NCBI RefSeq assembly: GCF_007859765.1
Contig: NZ_SIHJ01000001.1
Coordinates: forward strand, 3,389,156-3,453,155
DNA length: 64,000 bases
DNA from: Posidoniimonas corsicana
GTDB taxonomy: Bacteria > Planctomycetota > Planctomycetia > Pirellulales > Lacipirellulaceae
Direction: 5' to 3'
Part shown: piece after piece, positions 39,937 to 52,396 of the stretch
How the letters are laid out: each line of letters starts with the position of its first letter
Numbering within the stretch: the stretch's first letter is position 1
The notes under the pieces: model-generated
Database searches by the model: none
What the model saw: the letters and a program-made list of their open reading frames with translations, nothing else
What the model was told of the DNA's origin: nothing
Position numbers and translations under genes: made by a program

Positions 39937-41070
39937 CTAACTGCGACGCCCGCGATGAACACCCAAGCCGAGGCAGCTCAACACCACCATCCCAGCCGCG
40001 GTCGGCTCAGGAACAGCAGCGTTGTAGAACTGGATCTCGGCAATCTGCATCGAGTTGGCCAAGTTGGGTGCGTCCTTAAGTTCCGGGAACACAACACGGT
40101 ACGACGAGTACGCCGTATCGTTATTGATCGCAACAAATGTGCCCGGGGCGTTGAAGTCCGTGGGCCGCACGTCACTCAAGCTTATCGAAGCGGTGTCGAT
40201 AAGCGTCCAAGCCTCAGCCTCACCCGTCGAGTTGTCTGTGCTGTTGATCACGTCGTTCGTGCCATAGACGTCGACCCGGGTGGGATCGCGTTCAACCGCG
40301 TCATTGGCGGCCTTGATCTCAATGGCCTTGAGAACCTGCGCGCCGGCGGTTGGAGTGACGATGAAACCCGAATTGGCCTTCCCGAAGTTCAAGTACTTGT
40401 TGAGGGTGCCGTCGATCAGGTTCGCGGGAGACTCCGCGGCTGGGTAATTGCTGTCTGGAACGAGATTGTGGTCGAAAGCGATAGCCGCATCACCAAGGGT
40501 GAGCACGTCCGACCCCGTACCATCGGTGCTTTCAAACAGCGACACTTCGGAGATCTGCATCAAGGACGACCCGTTCACGGTCGGGAACAACAGCCGGTAA
40601 GAAGTGTAGGCGTTGCTGTTTGGGAACGACATCACAGGACCGGCCATCAGCCGGTCCGCTGGCAAGGAGACCGCCGAACCGGTAATCAGGCTCCAATTCT
40701 CGGAGAGCCCTAGCCCGTTATCGACGCTCGTCACGGCGTCATTCGTACCATACAGGGCGAACGACGTGGGGTCGCGGTCCGGGGCGTCGTTGGCGGTCGT
40801 GAGCAACAGGCTCCGAACCGTTGTGCTGCCAACGCTCGGGGTGACGATCAAACCCGAGTTTGCGCCGCCGAAGTTGAGGTACTTGGTGCCGGTGTCGTCG
40901 TCGAACGCCAGACCAGGGTTCTCCCCTGCTGGGTAATTGCTCGTTGGCCGAAGGCCATCGGTGTCGATTGCAAAAATGTCATCCGCAGGCGTCAAGAAAG
41001 GCGCGGCGGAAGCTAGCTGCCCACTAGCAGCAATAGCCATTGCTGCTAGTGCAGCAAACACAGACTTCAT
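39937..41070 (-). CDS. PEP-CTERM protein with two discoidin-like modules
   Basis: A 377-residue exported protein. The signal peptide is MKSVFAALAAMAIAASGQLASA. Two homologous modules of about 160 residues follow (about 25-180 and 190-350). Each carries TKYLNFG or NKYLNFG, ANSGxIVTP, a DRDPTSFALYG or ERDPTRVDVYG strand and a final MQISEVSLF or MQIAEIQFY. This is the pattern of F5/8 type C (galactose-binding-like) domains. The C-terminus has a PEP-CTERM signal (VPEP, hydrophobic run, HRGRRS). The start has AGGAGT six bases upstream. It is last of a three-gene reverse unit, 67 bases after its neighbour, and ends at a strong terminator. It probably binds surface or extracellular glycans, but the ligand is unknown. 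Confidence 0.88.
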   Translation of the reverse strand: MKSVFAALAAMAIAASGQLASAAPFLTPADDIFAIDTDGLRPTSNYPAGENPGLAFDDDTGTKYLNFGGANSGLIVTPSVGSTTVRSLLLTTANDAPDRDPTSFALYGTNDAVTSVDNGLGLSENWSLITGSAVSLPADRLMAGPVMSFPNSNAYTSYRLLFPTVNGSSLMQISEVSLFESTDGTGSDVLTLGDAAIAFDHNLVPDSNYPAAESPANLIDGTLNKYLNFGKANSGFIVTPTAGAQVLKAIEIKAANDAVERDPTRVDVYGTNDVINSTDNSTGEAEAWTLIDTASISLSDVRPTDFNAPGTFVAINNDTAYSSYRVVFPELKDAPNLANSMQIAEIQFYNAAVPEPTAAGMVVLSCLGLGVHRGRRS

Positions 41071-41137: not shown

Positions 41138-44100
41138 TTAGCAGTCGCGGCGCTTGCGGCACGACGAGAGCCCAACGCCTAGCAAGGCGACCAACGCGGC
41201 CGAGGCAGGCTCCGGAGCAGCGGCCCCTCCAGCAGTGGCGGCAGCGGACGCGCCGTAGTTGCCACGCCAGTCGAGGTAATCGTTCTGCGACACATCGCCC
41301 GGCGTCTTGTCATTGGGCAGACTTGTGTTCGTGCCCAGGTTGTCGCGCCAGACGGTGTAGTCCGCCGCGTCAACCGTGCCGTCATCGTTGAAGTCGCCAA
41401 GCAGTATTTCCGGCGCCACACCCGTGTAAACGACCCGTGCGTTGAACACGCCGCCGTCGGGGTTGGTCCAGGTCGCCACCAGGTCCTCAGCCAGCGACAG
41501 CGGGTTGTAGCCCGTCCCGAGCGACAGGCCCGAAGTTCCCGCTGCCAGCGTCGAGTCGCCACTGAAGTAGCCGTCAGCCAGGCGGAACAGATCAGACCCG
41601 CCGCCGACCTCCCAGCCGTTGCCCGAGCCATTTCCGGCGGGGAAAGCGCCCGACGCGCCGCCCAGGCCGTCAAAGCCTGAAGCGTCTAGGCCCCCCGACG
41701 GGCTCTCGATCGTCAGCGACTTGATGTCCATCGACGCCGCACCGCTCAGGTTATTGCTGAGGGTCATCTCGCCGGTGGCGCGGTCGACCGAGATCACCAC
41801 GTCCGACGGCCCCGAGAGCAGACGGAACTCATGCCCGCCGATGTTGCCCACACCCAGGTTAGCGGAGATCTCTGAAACGGTGAGCCGCATCGCGACGTAG
41901 CGACCCGAGTGATCGCCGTACAGCGAGTACGGCCGGATCACACTGTCGAGCAACCGGTTGTCGGTCGGTGTGATGTTGACGGTTGTATCTGGCGCCGACG
42001 CCGGCGTCACGCCGCCAAAGTCCGAGTTGCTGAACCAAAACTCGAACTGCCCAACACGGTCCGCAAGCGCGTTCCCACCCGAACGCTGGGCATACGCGAA
42101 CCAGTTGGCGTTTACGCTCGATCCGAAGTCGAAGAACACAGTCTTCTGCTCGATGCCCAGCCCAGCGTATTGCGCGTACTCGTCCTCGGTGCCCGCAAAG
42201 TCTGCGTAGTTCAGTGAGAACAGGTCGATGTTGACGTTGTCGAGCGGGGTGATGAACTGGTCGTCAAACAGGTTGATCGGCCCTGAGTTCTCGTTCTCAT
42301 CCATCTGATCCGCGGGGATGGAGGTCACCACGGCGGACGGCGTGTTCGGCCCTACGACACTGAAGCTCTGCGCTTGAGCGTTGGTAACCGGCAGCATAGT
42401 TGCTGCCGCCACCACGGCCGCCAGGCAGGGCAGCACACCTACACGGCGTCGACGCAGACGAAGCCCGATCGCAGCCACGCCCAGCAGCAGACCCGTCGAA
42501 GCCGGTTCTGGAACCTGAGTCCCAAACAAGGCGGCGGCGCCGCCCGCGGCGGCCACGAACAGGTTGAAGTCGTGGATGTCGCTATCGAAATCGGAGTCGA
42601 GGTCGCCTCCCAGGTAGGCTTCCAGTGCGGTCATCCCTTCGTAAGTCCCGCCATAGCCAGCCGCGAACAATGGCCAGTCCTCAGGACCGACGGTGCCGTT
42701 GCCCGAGTAGTCTCCGAGCACGATCTCGGTGCCGGTGTATTCCACGGCGCCGCCGATCAGACGGCCATCGGCCGCGCGGATAGCGAAGTCGAGATCCTCG
42801 AACGAGCTTGGCAGCGACTGCCAAATGTTACCGATGCTGATGGTCTGCCCCGCCAGCAGGATCCGGCCGTCGTTGGGGCCGCTGCTGGCGTCGTCCTCCT
42901 CTGCGAGCACAGTGCTGAGGGCGGAAGTCTCGATCCAGGTCTCGTTAGGATCGCCCGAGGTTGCGGCGATGGAGTCCCACTCGCTCGGCACCAGGCCTTC
43001 GGTCTGTGTCGAGGTGAGCTGGTAGCTGCCGAGGTCCACGTCTTCAATGGCCTCGATCGTCGCTTCACCCGTCTGGCGGTTGACCCTTAGGATCGCGAGG
43101 TCCTTGGCGTCAAGCGAGATCTCCGAGATCTGCATGCAGCAGACGCCGCTGCCACCACGAACGGTTGGGAAGATCATGCGGTAGGAGGTGTATGAGGTGT
43201 TGTTCGCCACCTCAACGTCGGCGCCCCTGGTGAAACGATCAGGAGAGACCTGCGTGTCGTCGAACGTGCCGCTGTCGATCAGCGTCCAGTTCTGCTCGTC
43301 GCCGATGCCGTTGTCCTCGGTGGTGATCGCCTCGTTCGTGCCGTACAGCTCCCAGGTGGCCGGGTCACGCTCGTTGAAGTCATTAGCCGTGGTGAGGCTG
43401 AACTTGTTAATGATCGACGAGCCGGTGGATGGCGTGACGATGAACCCGGAACGCTCGGCGCCGAAGTTCAAGTACTTGGTGGTCAAGTCCCGGTCGATCA
43501 GATTAACGGGCCGCTCCGCCTCGGGTGAGTTGCTGGAGGGCATCGGGTCGACATCGCGGATCGGGATGATCGGGTCGGATGCGGTAAGCATGCTCGACCC
43601 GCCGCCGTCGGGACCAGAAAAGAAAGCGATATCGGCAAGCTGCATCAGTCCGATGTCCGCCTGCTTGGTGACCGGGAAGGTCATCTTGTACGAGTTGTAC
43701 GTGGTGGAATTGCTGACGTTGAACGGCCCCTCCGTTACGCCCCGGTCATCGGTGAGCATCAGGTCGCCCATGTCGATGAGCGTCCAATTCTGCTCGCGGC
43801 CGTTACTGTGTGCCGGCGTGGTGATCGCCTCGTTGGTGCCCCACAACGTCCAAGAGCCGGGGTCCCGCCCGGGAGCGTCGTTGCCGGTGGTCATCGTGAA
43901 GCTCTGCAGTGCGGCCGTAACGTCCGGCGTTACGATGAAACCCGTGTTGTCGTCTCCGAAGTTGAGGTACTTGCTGGCAGGGTTCCCGTCCAAGAGCAGG
44001 TCGGCCGTCTCGGCGCCGGGCGATGAGCTACCGGTGGTCTTGTCTAGGTCGATAGCGATGATGAAGTCGCCGGGGGTGATAACGTTGAACGCGTTGGCGT

Positions 44101-44185
44101 TCTCAGAAGCCGCCAGCACGAAGACCGCAGCGAACAGCCAGAGGAGTGAAGGCTTGAGGGCGAGCGCCCGTTGATTCTTCGCCAT
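41138..44185 (-). CDS. Double PEP-CTERM fusion protein: discoidin modules, internal sorting signal, second signal peptide, dockerin
   Basis: A 1,015-residue frame that reads like two exosortase substrates joined end to end. First half: signal peptide (ending ASENANA), two discoidin-like modules (about 33-370), a beta region, a dockerin-like stretch (GDYSGNGTVGPEDWPLF), then a complete PEP-CTERM signal starting VPEPAST (558) and ending LRLRRRR. Directly after comes a hydrophobic, Ala-rich segment starting near 584 (VLPCLAAVVAAATMLPV, ending AQAQ) that looks like a fresh signal peptide. Second half: a beta-rich domain (DVNIDLFSL-type strands), a type I dockerin (VDAADYTVWRDNLG) and a terminal PEP-CTERM (APEPASAALVALLGVGL, basic end). 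Start at 44185 has AAGGA upstream and gives a normal signal peptide. The junction lies near 42441. A single extra base may have fused two genes, or the fusion is genuine. Confidence 0.8.
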   Translation of the reverse strand: MAKNQRALALKPSLLWLFAAVFVLAASENANAFNVITPGDFIIAIDLDKTTGSSSPGAETADLLLDGNPASKYLNFGDDNTGFIVTPDVTAALQSFTMTTGNDAPGRDPGSWTLWGTNEAITTPAHSNGREQNWTLIDMGDLMLTDDRGVTEGPFNVSNSTTYNSYKMTFPVTKQADIGLMQLADIAFFSGPDGGGSSMLTASDPIIPIRDVDPMPSSNSPEAERPVNLIDRDLTTKYLNFGAERSGFIVTPSTGSSIINKFSLTTANDFNERDPATWELYGTNEAITTEDNGIGDEQNWTLIDSGTFDDTQVSPDRFTRGADVEVANNTSYTSYRMIFPTVRGGSGVCCMQISEISLDAKDLAILRVNRQTGEATIEAIEDVDLGSYQLTSTQTEGLVPSEWDSIAATSGDPNETWIETSALSTVLAEEDDASSGPNDGRILLAGQTISIGNIWQSLPSSFEDLDFAIRAADGRLIGGAVEYTGTEIVLGDYSGNGTVGPEDWPLFAAGYGGTYEGMTALEAYLGGDLDSDFDSDIHDFNLFVAAAGGAAALFGTQVPEPASTGLLLGVAAIGLRLRRRRVGVLPCLAAVVAAATMLPVTNAQAQSFSVVGPNTPSAVVTSIPADQMDENENSGPINLFDDQFITPLDNVNIDLFSLNYADFAGTEDEYAQYAGLGIEQKTVFFDFGSSVNANWFAYAQRSGGNALADRVGQFEFWFSNSDFGGVTPASAPDTTVNITPTDNRLLDSVIRPYSLYGDHSGRYVAMRLTVSEISANLGVGNIGGHEFRLLSGPSDVVISVDRATGEMTLSNNLSGAASMDIKSLTIESPSGGLDASGFDGLGGASGAFPAGNGSGNGWEVGGGSDLFRLADGYFSGDSTLAAGTSGLSLGTGYNPLSLAEDLVATWTNPDGGVFNARVVYTGVAPEILLGDFNDDGTVDAADYTVWRDNLGTNTSLPNDKTPGDVSQNDYLDWRGNYGASAAATAGGAAAPEPASAALVALLGVGLSSCRKRRDC

Positions 44186-44275: not shown

Positions 44276-45433
44276 TTAGGGGCGCCCCGGACGCGTGAAC
44301 GCCTTGGCCTCGCCGTTGTCGGCTCGGGCGCCTAGTTGCCGGTAGGGCTCCGCGTCGATGTCGTAGCTGATCAGGCTCACTGAGCCGTCGCACATGGCGA
44401 ACATACAACCTCCGGGGTGGGGTCCGCCGAACAACTCACGGGTGACGCCGTCGATCGCGGCGTTGCTAGTTACGCCCACCGCCCGCAGGGCGTTGGCGAC
44501 CGACTCGAGCGACTCAAAGTCCCCCCGCGGACGGTGCGTGTAGTTGCGGCCGTCGTAGTAGGTGCCACGCACAATGTCGTCCTGGAACCCACAGAACATG
44601 GCCCAGTCGTCAGCGATCCAAGACTGCGAGAGGGCGTAACGCTCCTCCGGCACCCACGCCTCTCCGAGCGCGATCGTCTTCGACAGCCCGTCAGTGATCT
44701 GGCGCAGTTTCACCGCCGTCCCACAGAACGAGATGCCGGTAAACTCGTCGGAGCCAGGCGGGAAGCCCGCCTTCTTGGTCGTGTAGTTCGCCGGGCTCAG
44801 CCCCTGACATAGGTTGTCGGAGCCGGTCGTGTCGCCCACATTGGTGGCGTAGTCGCCGCGGGCTCCAGAAAGCTGAGGATAAGTAAGTATCCCACCCTGG
44901 CCGTCGCCCGACTGGGCCGGCCGGGCGATCTCGTACGGATACGGTCCGCCGTCCCGCCGGGAAGGGCAATTCATTGCCGCCACCGGCGTGGCGTCACGCT
45001 CGGCAAGCAAGACCTTGCGGTTGCTTCCCACCTCTGAGGCGCCCATCTGATGGAGGGCCGACTCCTCAATGAAAGGCAGCACGCTATACACCCACCCGCC
45101 CGGCTGTTCTTCGCCCGCACCGCGCTCTGGATCTCCGGTCCAGTTGCCCGCCCACCCCGACGACGGCAAACGCCCATAGGTCGACTCGAGATTCACCATC
45201 CCGAGCGTCAAGTTCTTCAAATTGTTGGTGCACGACATCCGCCTCGCCGCCTCGCGAGCAGACTGAACCGCGGGAAGCAGCAACGCGATCAAGATGCCGA
45301 TGATGGCAATCACCACCAGCAACTCCACCAACGTGAATGCGGCCTCGCTGCGTTCCACGACGCGTCTCCATCGACGAAGTCCGCGAACCGATTGGCTCCC
45401 GCTCGGACGCTTTGACAACGCTCCTAAGGACAT
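44276..45433 (-). CDS. DUF1559 pseudopilin-like protein, long leader
   Basis: A 385-residue DUF1559 protein. The pseudopilin motif is [20 protein letters not shown] with Phe33 at +1 and Glu37 at +5. The residue before the cut is Ala32, not the usual Gly, and the basic leader is unusually long at 32 residues. The C-terminal family motif is GGCMFAMCDGSVSLISYDID. Start at 45433 has AAGGAG upstream. An in-frame ATG at 45550 has none. It is first of the reverse three-gene unit and lies 90 bases ahead of the discoidin fusion gene, which suggests that the pseudopilin helps export, assemble or display the discoidin proteins. Confidence 0.9.
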   Translation of the reverse strand: MSLGALSKRPSGSQSVRGLRRWRRVVERSEAAFTLVELLVVIAIIGILIALLLPAVQSAREAARRMSCTNNLKNLTLGMVNLESTYGRLPSSGWAGNWTGDPERGAGEEQPGGWVYSVLPFIEESALHQMGASEVGSNRKVLLAERDATPVAAMNCPSRRDGGPYPYEIARPAQSGDGQGGILTYPQLSGARGDYATNVGDTTGSDNLCQGLSPANYTTKKAGFPPGSDEFTGISFCGTAVKLRQITDGLSKTIALGEAWVPEERYALSQSWIADDWAMFCGFQDDIVRGTYYDGRNYTHRPRGDFESLESVANALRAVGVTSNAAIDGVTRELFGGPHPGGCMFAMCDGSVSLISYDIDAEPYRQLGARADNGEAKAFTRPGRP

Positions 45434-46006
45434 GTCCTTTGCTCCTTGACCTAACGGCGATTGATTGATCACGGGCGCTGCAGGTGCGCGTCCGCGCATC
45501 CAAACACCCAATGAAACTCGCCACCTGACGGGAATCCCAAGTGAACCCAACCGGGGAACACGAATCGTCTATGGAAAAGCAGCGACAATAGACTTAGCGC
45601 CGCAGCCACACGGCCGCGGAATCAACAGCGCTAGTCAGTCGCCGAGCGGTTGCCCCGCCAGCCCTTAATACCGTTCATCAGGCACGCGTTACACGAAATC
45701 ACAATCGTGCCGCGGTTTGTCGCCGCCTGAGGTTGCCCGTAAGCGGGGCTCCCCGCACTCCGCAGTGCCGGATGAGCGATCAACCGCATAACAGAATGAC
45801 TAAGCACGGCATCAGCCGATCGTGGTGATCGGCTGACGCCGTCGCAGCAGCTAGGCGCGATCCTCACGTTTTGCTGAGAATGATGTAACCGCGAACGGCA
45901 TTCGCGGTGTTACCGTCTGGCGGCGCTTATGCGTTCGCCGAGCGGGGCAGACAACTTCCTGCAACTTTCACCGGAAAAACCCGTGCCAAAGGCGACCCGG
46001 AGCAGC
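45434..46006. other. Divergent control region between the DUF1559 unit and the sigma-factor unit
   Basis: No convincing gene. One open frame on the minus strand (45631-45867) lacks a domain and ribosome binding site. The region holds two hairpins: TCAGCCGATC/GATCGGCTGA with a 5-base loop (45812-45836), and ACCGCGAA/TTCGCGGT (45888-45908), extended by GTA/TAC across a bulge. As the only non-coding stretch between two divergent units it is the likely place for ECF-dependent promoters, but I cannot define them. Confidence 0.5.
45812..45836. promoter_or_regulatory. Perfect 10-base hairpin or operator in the divergent region
   Basis: TCAGCCGATC (45812-45821) and GATCGGCTGA (45827-45836) flank GTGGT. 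There is no U-tract on either side, so an operator or an RNA element is more likely than a terminator. Confidence 0.45.
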
Positions 46007-48244: not shown

Positions 48245-48385
48245 CAGCTCCGGCTGCCCCTCACTTCGGAACCCTCGTTCTACTCGCGGAACAGCATTGC
48301 ACGAGTGGGTTCTCCCGCCACGGCTATCCTCAGGCCGGGATGTGTCCGTTCGTGCGCGCCAATCTCACCTCATGAGCTCGCCCCG

Positions 48386-51300
48386 ATGCCCCATTCGCCC
48401 CAACTCCGGCAGCGCCGCGCCCCAAGGATTGAACGGCTAGAGCAGCGGCAGCTGCTCGCCGGCGACACGTACCTGGTCAACTTCCAGAATGACGAAGCGA
48501 CCACGCCAACCGGCTACCTCCGCGATTCCGGCAACCTGTTCGGCGACCGTGGCGAAGGCCTTTCCTACGGCTGGACGAGCGACCACACCGACCAGGGACG
48601 CGAACGCAGCGTGCTAGCCGACCAGCGTCTGGACACCCTCATCCACATCGAGGCGGGGCAGGCGTGGGAGTTTGCGATCAGCAATGGGCAGTACGAGGTG
48701 ACGCTGGTCATCGGCGACCCCGACAACAATGATGGCGTCCACACGGCGAACGTGGAGGGCGTTCCGTTCTTTGCGGGCGTCGCTGACGGCGACAACCCGA
48801 TGTCCCAGACCGCGGTTGTCTCGGTGGGCGATGGTCGGTTGACCATCGACGTCGGCGGGGCCGCCGAGAAGGCGACCCGCGTCAACTACGTGCACATAGT
48901 CGGTGTTCCCAGCGGACCGAACAACGCGCCCGCGCAGCCGAACATCACCGAGCCGTCGGTCGACGGTCAGGAGGTCAACCCGGCCGACGTGCACATGGAG
49001 GCGGTCGGCTACTTCGACGTCGACGGCGATGCCCACAAGTCCACCGACTGGCAGATCTGGACAGTCGGCGGATCGGCCGAGCCGGTCTGGCAGACGCTGG
49101 GCATCGAGGGCGTGGAACGGTTGCACACCCACCTGGGCGACGGCGTCTTCATCAACAGCCACGCCGGGCAGATCGAGCTCAACGCGAACACCGACTACGA
49201 GCTGCGGGCGCGCTACCGCGACGAGGCCGGGTCCGTTAGCGCCTACTCCAGCCGCCTGTTTCAGACCGGCGCCGCTTCGAGCATCTTCTCCCTCCAGTTG
49301 GAAGACATACCCGCCACCCCAACCCCGACCTGGACGAGCACCCTGGGGACGCCTATCGAACTGCCGGTGGGCGACTCTTTCCTGTCGCCGTCAGACGCCA
49401 TTATCGCGTTCGACTTCGATGCGTCGACCAACAGCGACTCTCCTGGCGGCGAACAGGCGCCCAACATTCTCGACAACGACGCCGACACCAAATACCTCAA
49501 CTTCGGAGAGGTGCTCACCGGCTTTATCGTCACACCCGGCTCTGCTTCCACCGTGCGGAGCTTCACTATCACCACCGCCAACGACGCCCCCGCCCGCGAC
49601 CCCGCCAGCTATGTGCTGTACGGCACCAACGACCCCATCACATCCAACGCGCACGGCTCTGGACGCAGCGAGAACTGGATAGAATTATCGTCCGGAGCTC
49701 TCTCGCTGTCCGACGATCGATTCGTCACGTCGGATCCGGTCAGCTTCGCCAACACGACATCGTACACCTCGTACAAGCTTATCTTCCCCACGGTGAAGAA
49801 TGACGGCGCCGCCAACAGCATGCAGATCGCGGAGGTCGACTTCTTCACCGGCGCTGCGGCTACCGGTGCGGAGATCTTGTCCAGCGGCGACTTCGTGATC
49901 CCCGTTCAGGACATCGTCGCCGGCCCGTCTAGCGACTCTGCGCCTGGGGAAGAAGTCGACAAGGCGATCGACGGCGATGTCGGCACCAAGTACATCAACC
50001 ACGGCGAGCTGAACTCCGGGTTCATCGTCACCCCCGCGGTCGGGTCGACATCGATCAGCGGCTTCCGGTTGACCACCGCCAACGACGCGCCCGAACGCGA
50101 CCCAACAGGCTGGGAGCTGTACGGCACCAACGAGCCCATCCAGTCGGTCGACCACGGATTCGGCGACGGCGAGAACTGGACGTTGATCGACTCGGGCATT
50201 GTCGACCTGCCGTTCGAGCGATTCACCCAGGGCGCCGACGTCGCGGTCAACAACTCCGCCGGGGCGTTCACGTCCTACCGCATGGTTTTCACCGGCGTTA
50301 GAGATGTCAACGCGGCCAACTCGGTGCAGTTCTCCGAGGTCGAGTTCTTCGGGGGTGAGTCATCAGGCGAGGCGCCGAAGCTGAGCATCCAGGCGGGCGA
50401 CACCGGCGACAGGTTCCTCGAGATCGAGGGCGCCGACATCCCAGGCAACCTCGTCACGGACTACCCGGGCCTAGTCAGCCACGCCGACGTACGCGTGGTA
50501 ATCACCGCCGGAGATAAGCCGCTTTCGCTGTCGCGGTCCGACCTGACCTTTGGTGACGGCGGCGGCGGTTCCCGCACCATCTACCTGCCACAGGTCGAAC
50601 TCGCGGCCGGCGAGCGGTTGGACCTGTGGGTCTCGTCGGCAGGCGGCACGTACTACGGCGCCGAGCTGCAGACCTCGCCCGATTTCTCCCTCCTGGCGCG
50701 GTCGGCCGATCTCGACATCCCGTATGTGGTGAACGAGCCCGGTTTCGTGATCGAGCAGGTCGGCGATGGCTACCGCCTGCCGGTAAACATCGCGTTCGTC
50801 CCGGACCCTGGGCCGAACCCGTCCGACCCTCTCTACTTCGTGACGGAGCTCTACGGGTCGATTCAGGTCGTGACCCGCGATGGCGCCAAGCACGAGTTCG
50901 CCACCGGGCTGCTTGACTACAACCCGCAGGGGCCGATCTCGGGCTCGGGCGAGCAGGGCCTCACCGGGATCGCCGTTGAGCGCGACCCCGCCAACCCCGA
51001 GATCTACAACCTGTACGTCGGGATGCTCTGGGACAACGGGTCTCCGGCTGGCGGTGCGTCCCACTACCCAAAGGTCGAGAAGATTACGAGCGTGGCGGGC
51101 GGGCTCGCGATGGACAGCCGCACCGTGCTGCTGAACATGCAGCCCGAGACCCAGGGGCAGTCGCACCAGATCTCGAATATTTCCTTCGGGCCCGACGGCC
51201 TGCTCTACGTGCACGTAGGCGACGGCTTCGACGCGAGCACCGCGCAGGACCTCGACCAATTCCGTGGCAAGATCCTCCGCATGCACACCGACGGCGCGCC

Positions 51301-52396
51301 CGCCGCAGAGAACCCGTTCTACGATGCGGGCAACGGGATCACGGCCCGGGACTACATCTGGGCGTACGGGTTCCGCAACCCGTTTGGTGGCGCATGGCGG
51401 GCGTCGGACGGCAGTCACTACGAAGTGGAAAACGGTCCCAGCGTCGACCGCTTCGCGAAAGTTGAAGAGGGCGTGAACTACGGGTGGGACGGCTCCAACG
51501 CCTCGATGCAGATCAACGCGATCTACAACTGGGCCCCGTCTACGGCGCCGGTGAATATCACATTCGTTCAGCGGGAGACATTCAACGGGAGCATGCTCCC
51601 GGCCTCCATGCAGGACATGGCGTTCATCAGCGAGTCCGGCCCAACCTACGCCGCAGGCCCGCAGGCGAATGGCAAACGATTGACGGTGTTTGAGCTCGAC
51701 GCGAACGGCGCGGTGGTCGACGGTCCATCGACGCTCGTCGAGTACGCGGGCACCGGTCGCAGCAGCGTCGTCGCGCTGGCCGCCGGCCCGGACGGCCTCT
51801 ACTTCTCCGAGTTGTATGAGGACACCGGAGAGGGCGGCCCCACCGGCCCGGGCGCAAGGATCTACCGCGTCCGCTACGTCAACCCACTGGCCGGCGACTA
51901 CGACATCGACGGCGACGTCGACCAGGACGACTACACCGTGTGGCGGCAGAGCTACGGATCGAACCTCTTGCTCGCAGCCGATGGCAACGGCGACGGCCGG
52001 GTCGACGCCGCCGACTACACCGTTTGGCGTGACAACCTGGGCGCGAGCCTGGCACCAAGCCTCGCCACGACGACCGAGGTCGCCGCGCCGGCGATCGCGA
52101 TCGAGCCGCCTGCTCGGGTCGCTCAGGCAGCGGCGCCGGTCTCGCCGGATTCCGCCCCAATGACCCGGCCCAGGCGTCCGCTCGCCGGGCCGCCCACCGC
52201 CGAATCCGACGATAGCAACGCGACCCTACACCTTCAGGCCGATGCTGCCGAGTCGAGGTTCCGCCGGATCACTTTGCATGGCGAGACGGCTGAAACGCCA
52301 CTCCAGGAGCCGGACGAAGAAGTCGATGAGTCGGCTGCCGACGCCGTGTTCGCAGGACTGGGCGATGATCCACAGCGGCTAGCGAGCCTGCTCTAG
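48386..52396 (+). CDS. LEPR-XLL protein with discoidin modules, sorbosone dehydrogenase-like propeller and dockerin
   Basis: A 1,336-residue exported protein. The N-terminal LEPR-XLL signature is RIERLEQRQLLAGD (about residues 14-27). A beta domain and an FN3-like segment follow to about 310. Two discoidin-like modules occupy about 330-490 and 500-655 (KYLNFGEVLTGFIVTP, KYINHGELNSGFIVTP). A glucose/sorbosone dehydrogenase-like six-blade propeller occupies about 780-1150: VNIAFVPDPGP, LYFVTELYGSIQVVTRDG, GLTGIAVERDP, QISNISFGPDGLLYVHVGDG, RGKILRMHTDG and WAYGFRNPFGGAWR. A type I dockerin lies at about 1170-1220 (DGDVDQDDYTVWRQ, VDAADYTVWRDNLG). The C-terminal 110 residues are Pro/Glu/Asp-rich. 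There is no PEP-CTERM signal. It may oxidise or bind sugars at the surface. The start at 48386 is chosen by family position, and its ribosome binding site is weak. Confidence 0.85.
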   Translation: MPHSPQLRQRRAPRIERLEQRQLLAGDTYLVNFQNDEATTPTGYLRDSGNLFGDRGEGLSYGWTSDHTDQGRERSVLADQRLDTLIHIEAGQAWEFAISNGQYEVTLVIGDPDNNDGVHTANVEGVPFFAGVADGDNPMSQTAVVSVGDGRLTIDVGGAAEKATRVNYVHIVGVPSGPNNAPAQPNITEPSVDGQEVNPADVHMEAVGYFDVDGDAHKSTDWQIWTVGGSAEPVWQTLGIEGVERLHTHLGDGVFINSHAGQIELNANTDYELRARYRDEAGSVSAYSSRLFQTGAASSIFSLQLEDIPATPTPTWTSTLGTPIELPVGDSFLSPSDAIIAFDFDASTNSDSPGGEQAPNILDNDADTKYLNFGEVLTGFIVTPGSASTVRSFTITTANDAPARDPASYVLYGTNDPITSNAHGSGRSENWIELSSGALSLSDDRFVTSDPVSFANTTSYTSYKLIFPTVKNDGAANSMQIAEVDFFTGAAATGAEILSSGDFVIPVQDIVAGPSSDSAPGEEVDKAIDGDVGTKYINHGELNSGFIVTPAVGSTSISGFRLTTANDAPERDPTGWELYGTNEPIQSVDHGFGDGENWTLIDSGIVDLPFERFTQGADVAVNNSAGAFTSYRMVFTGVRDVNAANSVQFSEVEFFGGESSGEAPKLSIQAGDTGDRFLEIEGADIPGNLVTDYPGLVSHADVRVVITAGDKPLSLSRSDLTFGDGGGGSRTIYLPQVELAAGERLDLWVSSAGGTYYGAELQTSPDFSLLARSADLDIPYVVNEPGFVIEQVGDGYRLPVNIAFVPDPGPNPSDPLYFVTELYGSIQVVTRDGAKHEFATGLLDYNPQGPISGSGEQGLTGIAVERDPANPEIYNLYVGMLWDNGSPAGGASHYPKVEKITSVAGGLAMDSRTVLLNMQPETQGQSHQISNISFGPDGLLYVHVGDGFDASTAQDLDQFRGKILRMHTDGAPAAENPFYDAGNGITARDYIWAYGFRNPFGGAWRASDGSHYEVENGPSVDRFAKVEEGVNYGWDGSNASMQINAIYNWAPSTAPVNITFVQRETFNGSMLPASMQDMAFISESGPTYAAGPQANGKRLTVFELDANGAVVDGPSTLVEYAGTGRSSVVALAAGPDGLYFSELYEDTGEGGPTGPGARIYRVRYVNPLAGDYDIDGDVDQDDYTVWRQSYGSNLLLAADGNGDGRVDAADYTVWRDNLGASLAPSLATTTEVAAPAIAIEPPARVAQAAAPVSPDSAPMTRPRRPLAGPPTAESDDSNATLHLQADAAESRFRRITLHGETAETPLQEPDEEVDESAADAVFAGLGDDPQRLASLL

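Follow-up and report, generated by a model that had tools for sequence, protein, structure and literature searches.

Polyproteins are, to our knowledge, regarded as a viral or eukaryotic device, with very few cases in bacteria. The nearest bacterial precedent known to us is the cytochrome b/c1 (fbcH) precursor of Bradyrhizobium japonicum, where a single open reading frame (ORF) codes for two proteins, exported or membrane-bound, and signal peptidase separates them at a signal inside the chain. For the PEP-CTERM/exosortase (EpsH) system, Haft et al. (2006; PMC1569441) suggest that non-terminal copies of the signal may be non-functional, and the sortase LPXTG and GlyGly-CTERM signals, which are likewise a motif, a helix and a basic tail read by a membrane protease, are described as C-terminal only in PMC3237569 and have another motif and enzyme. 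Here we describe a gene of the planctomycete Posidoniimonas corsicana in which two PEP-CTERM units follow each other in one frame. It lies in a stretch of 64,000 nucleotides (contig NZ_SIHJ01000001.1, positions 3,389,156 to 3,453,155), hereafter the window, in which feature positions are counted.

The fbcH precursor resembles this gene in being a single bacterial ORF for two proteins with an internal signal, but it holds two respiratory subunits without a sorting signal, whereas the planctomycete chains described below hold many different surface proteins in up to eight units, and each joint carries two predicted cleavage signals with one Arg cluster common to both. With PEP-CTERM/exosortase sorting the locus shares a tripartite signal scoring above curated cut-offs, an N-terminal signal peptide and EpsH-family exosortases, of which the genome has three above the Pfam cut-off (PF09721) alongside about 90 PEP-CTERM matches. 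Unlike in that system, the signal in the window is internal, repeated and conserved, and is followed by a new signal peptide. The viral polyproteins cut by host signal peptidase, such as those of the flavivirus and hepatitis C structural region (e.g. PMC7601889), also alternate stop-transfer and internal signals and are cut on the outer face; the planctomycete chains differ in being bacterial and chromosomal, in having exosortase as the proposed second protease, and in lacking homology. Our literature search found no paper joining exosortase or PEP-CTERM with the term 'polyprotein'; an earlier mention in the exosortase paper PMC3256604 is possible.

Layout of the reading frame and its internal joint

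The minus strand of the window between 41138 and 44209 is a single stop-free frame of 1,023 aa counted from the first ATG; an alternative ATG at 44185 gives the 1,015 aa counted in an earlier annotation made without database searches (the sequence-only reading). From the N- to the C-terminus, the frame encodes a signal peptide ending ANA|F that is kept in homologues (residues 9-40; 44090-44185), two tandem galactose-binding-like domains (43100-44089), one more domain, paired Asp-rich loops that resemble a dockerin and which we call type A (GDYSGNG..DWPLF..GDLDSDFDSD; 42524-42721), the joint, a second cargo, a second putative dockerin of 'type B' (GDFNDDGTVDAADYTVWRDNLG; 41246-41401) and a terminal PEP-CTERM (41141-41218). 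The predicted mature region of unit 2 (41210-42370), comprising the cargo that starts with SFSVVG and the type B dockerin, is kept in 15 homologues. All these features are on the minus strand. The window ORF holds two units, each presumed functional, in one uninterrupted frame.

The joint between the dockerin-like segment of unit 1 and cargo 2 reads VPEPASTGLLLGVAAIGLRLRRRR, VGVLPCLAAVVAAATMLPVTNAQA|QSFSVVG. It opens with a complete PEP-CTERM signal (VPEPAST, hydrophobic run, Arg cluster; residues 565-588, 42446-42517), which scores 27.1 bits in the genome search and 21.1 bits in the Pfam hmmscan against a PF07589 cut-off of 20.7, and 26.5 bits against a TIGR02595 cut-off of 16. The Arg cluster RLRRRR (42443-42460) forms both the tail of this PEP-CTERM and the predicted n-region of the second signal peptide. 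The second hydrophobic segment (residues 590-613) ends NAQA|Q and supplies the h- and c-region (42371-42442), with the predicted signal peptidase site between 42371 and 42370. The internal segment has the basic n-region, hydrophobic h-region and AxA-like site of a Sec signal peptide, as judged by home-made scoring. The internal PEP-CTERM lies 435 residues before the end of the ORF rather than at the extreme C-terminus, and is internal in all 16 aligned homologues. The terminal copy (residue ~998) is a second TIGR02595 match of 22.1 bits (G000:C1:3430302-3430373) and does lie at the extreme C-terminus.

Profile scores and the conservation described below bear out the sequence-only reading in its full internal PEP-CTERM followed by an Arg cluster and a second signal-peptide-like segment, and the profile scores also confirm the second PEP-CTERM that it placed at the end of the 1,015-residue protein; the profile check that it had proposed for the junction gave scores above both cut-offs. 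The further dockerin that it saw in the second unit stands as a Dockerin_1 match with an E-value of 0.004, at a score under the curated Pfam cut-off. For type I dockerins the Dockerin_1 score is 17.8 bits against a cut-off of 22.9, and with the family profile the unit 1 segment matches the Protein Data Bank dockerins 5nrm and 5nrk (E 0.0016).

Conservation of the joint and spread of the chains

A whole-protein search covering 59 related genomes recovered uninterrupted homologues in the same frame. The second member of the genus (G001) is 66% identical across residues 1-1020, other genera reach about 40-53% (for example, 52% in G021 and 50% in G013), and some genomes have several copies. A scan of the named genomes with the single protein gave no match; the alignment search then found named relatives. 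In all 16 aligned sequences, the window ORF and 15 homologues, the units form one gene with the joint at the same place. This answers the orthologue comparison proposed in the sequence-only reading, which asked whether relatives have one gene or two, and runs against its refuting case of orthologues that are always two separate genes. Common to all 16 are VPEP, a hydrophobic run, the Arg cluster, a second hydrophobic run and an Ala at its end (-1), and the following SFSVVG is mostly conserved. Chance is excluded as the source of this layout because 15 further homologues share it. The homologue assemblies are independent, and include single-contig genomes and the isolates Aeoliella straminimaris (family Lacipirellulaceae, order Pirellulales) and Botrimarina colliarenosi.

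Conservation within the joint was followed in a 15-sequence alignment (A3). The only columns between the dockerin and cargo 2 that are at least 90% conserved are V566-P567-E568-P569, R586 and A613-Q614, while the sequence of both hydrophobic stretches is free to change and their length differs as well. The conserved columns fall on the residues by which exosortase and signal peptidase would be expected to recognize their sites, with the shared positive charge in between. This is the pattern expected of two cleavage signals.

The quality of the internal signal peptides was assessed in 88 tight joints, in which the second hydrophobic run begins at most 15 residues after the last Arg. The gap is mostly 0-2 residues, short enough for one Arg cluster to act in both signals. 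We scored the segments with a cleavage-site matrix built here from 111 N-terminal signal peptides, whose training sites were chosen by an AxA-like rule. The median score is 7.32 for the internal segments and 7.65 for the N-terminal ones (p = 0.96), against 0.75 for 42 helices of polytopic membrane proteins (p = 6e-15 versus the internal segments), and the largest median of 200 shuffles, 3.99, never reaches that of the internal segments; absolute scores are flattered by the AxA-picked training sites, but the control was scored alike. The strict AxA count is weak (64 of 88 joints, compared with a shuffle mean of 56 and a maximum of 68) because the sequences are Ala-rich, and the matrix was used instead. 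The absence of stops from the 4,712 codons of these joints, where base composition predicts about 94, shows mainly that the set is coding, since the joints were picked from stop-free ORFs.

A search with the joint profile in the window genome and its relatives showed that the arrangement is widespread. The census of the window genome, made over 40 regions and therefore a lower bound, found 13 further stop-free ORFs with an internal PEP-CTERM (14 with the window ORF). Of these 13, twelve have a PEP-CTERM at their end and several (L080, L083, L086 and L093) carry three units. Stop-free full-joint matches occur in at least 26 of 117 related genomes, from six families of the order; outside the class, two genomes (G193 and G275) have such rows among the matches listed. 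The most telling examples are long chains: a single frame of 2,298 aa with eight PEP-CTERM signals, the last one terminal (L143), and a 2,427-aa chain with seven signals and near-repeat units (L144), both with the same kind of joint. A third frame, L142, runs off the start of its contig and holds nine or more signals over a length of at least 2,531 aa. A run of eight units, each with predicted signal peptide, cargo, PEP-CTERM and Arg cluster leading into the next signal peptide, would be hard to read otherwise than as a polyprotein.

Two further frames depart from the usual chain. L160 (2257-6160, plus strand) has an internal PEP-CTERM and signal peptide, and a motif search found no terminal PEP-CTERM; the last unit of this chain may be sorted differently. 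At G000:C1:423587-423814, inside L102, the frame of a PEP-CTERM protein runs on into a type IV prepilin-like, DUF1559-like start. Three genomes of the family have this fusion without a stop (100, 76 and 64% identity; homologues in G001:C15 and G007:C6), so exosortase substrates are not the only possible second units of a chain.

Proposed processing and alternative readings

We think it likely that two exosortase substrates are made from this gene as one secreted polyprotein, which exosortase would split at PEP and signal peptidase at AxA. The N-terminal signal peptide would start the export of unit 1, and the internal PEP-CTERM helix would act as a stop-transfer and keep the Arg cluster on the cytoplasmic side. 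The cluster would double as the n-region of the second signal peptide, whose helix would go outward and restart export. Exosortase would cut, and probably transfer, unit 1 at PEP; signal peptidase I would cut after AxA and free the N-terminus of unit 2, which exosortase would sort through the unit's own PEP-CTERM. What remains would be a short helix-Arg-helix peptide, and one translation event would deliver units 1 and 2 in equal amounts (1:1) at one membrane site. A genuine polyprotein was among the options in the sequence-only reading: the architecture is strongly supported and reaches well beyond the window gene, and the cut in the middle is a prediction.

Several points weigh against this proposal. 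Cleavage is deduced from signals in the sequence. Exosortase has so far been proposed for C-terminal signals only, whereas the internal copy precedes a second helix. The signal-peptide score is home-made, with AxA-chosen sites, and its control is small (42 helices). The window joint holds one GTG, and some longer joints (e.g. L080, L087, L143, L145, L147 and L159) hold an ATG and a complete n-region, so that independent starts are possible there.

Other explanations of the fused frame fare less well. The sequence-only reading had pointed to a TAG at 42441-42439, just past the Arg cluster, as a possible trace of a recent one-base insertion or an assembly error that fused two genes. The TAG is present as described and lies in frame +1. 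However, an out-of-frame stop is found in 45% of the 88 joints compared with 31% of equal-length control windows, and its position is not conserved across the 16 homologues; we therefore reject any special significance of the TAG. Fifteen homologues from independent assemblies, single-contig genomes and two isolates included, carry this fused joint as well. Taken together with the frequent and unconserved stops, this indicates that the fusion is old and kept, and refutes both the insertion and the assembly error for the family; we give these explanations practically no credence. For the window copy alone, an error could hold only if the raw reads lacked a base, and would make that copy a broken member of a fused family.

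Alternatively, the fused protein might remain uncut mid-chain, the two helices forming a membrane hairpin that tethers two outside domains as one surface protein. Helix-Arg-helix is the shape of an ordinary membrane hairpin too, and cleavage is predicted here from sequence signals. Yet a hairpin requires neither PEP nor A-x-A|Q, and these together with one Arg are the only conserved positions of the joint; the membrane-helix controls are without such cleavage sites, and chains of seven to eight units would require six to seven hairpins. We consider an uncut hairpin unlikely. The GTG of the window joint and the ATGs with their own n-region in some long joints could instead point to units translated separately, with unit 2 begun at an internal start codon in an overlapping arrangement and the missing stop incidental. 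A first unit without a stop is nevertheless fused, whatever happens downstream, and the start codons are unconserved among the 16 homologues. An in-frame ATG, GTG or TTG is missing from the stretch needed in 38 of the 88 joints, and an ATG occurs there in just 16. Internal starts cannot account for unit 2 across the whole set, and we regard separate translation as very improbable.

Extending the proposed polyprotein from the window gene to its relatives, we lean towards the view that making surface proteins as chromosomally encoded polyproteins is a general strategy of Pirellulales and of a few other planctomycetes. In each chain 2-8 exosortase substrates would be joined, in Lacipirellulaceae cases with a largely fixed dockerin order (type A, B, C), and then split at alternating exosortase and signal peptidase sites. 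The partners would thereby arrive at the surface jointly and in equal amounts, and might assemble in the order of the chain. If true, conserved genome-wide secreted polyproteins in cultured bacteria would change the annotation of many 'giant' planctomycete surface proteins, and PEP-CTERM signals would be shown to work mid-chain. Exosortase, the activity of which is poorly known, would gain substrates whose cleavage shows as one band becoming two.

Unit order, cargo domains and neighbouring genes

The dockerin-like tails in the fused ORFs L029-L048 and L079-L095 succeed each other in a nearly fixed order: type A (DWPxF..), type B (DYTVWRDNLG) and, in some three-unit chains, a third type. When 35 ORF entries were sorted by simple patterns, a rough classing, 23 showed A then B, and the three-unit L083 and L086 begin with A, B; L186 shows a different unit order. 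A constant order of this kind suggests joint action of the units. In relatives, rows of separate genes, each with its own stop, run type A, type A, type B (L177, L178, L180 and L185). The unfused A-A-B rows are likely the ancestral state, and the chains would derive from operons of separate PEP-CTERM genes by loss of the stop codon and spacer.

The first domain of unit 1 was modelled with six in-window copies at a predicted local distance difference test score (pLDDT) of 73. The model matches a module of 7nsn with Z 14.2 and CBM32 structures with Z 11-12; a Pfam sequence search of the window ORF gave no F5/8C match. By this model, the domain has the F5/8 type C-CBM32 fold, a galactose-binding-like jelly roll, which would suit sugar binding in the matrix or cell coat. 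The model of the unit 2 cargo has a pLDDT of only 33 and is too poor for use, and no fold is therefore given to it.

A stand-alone PEP-CTERM gene (39937-41070, minus strand), a paralogue of the unit 1 cargo by sequence comparison, lies 67 bases past the polyprotein stop. The polyprotein gene is preceded, directly upstream and likewise on the minus strand, by a prepilin-like gene (44276-45550). A 1,363-aa protein encoded on the plus strand at 48305-52396 has the unit 1 cargo domain in two further copies, a sugar-dehydrogenase-like part and an LEQRQLLAGD N-terminus, and is without a PEP-CTERM.
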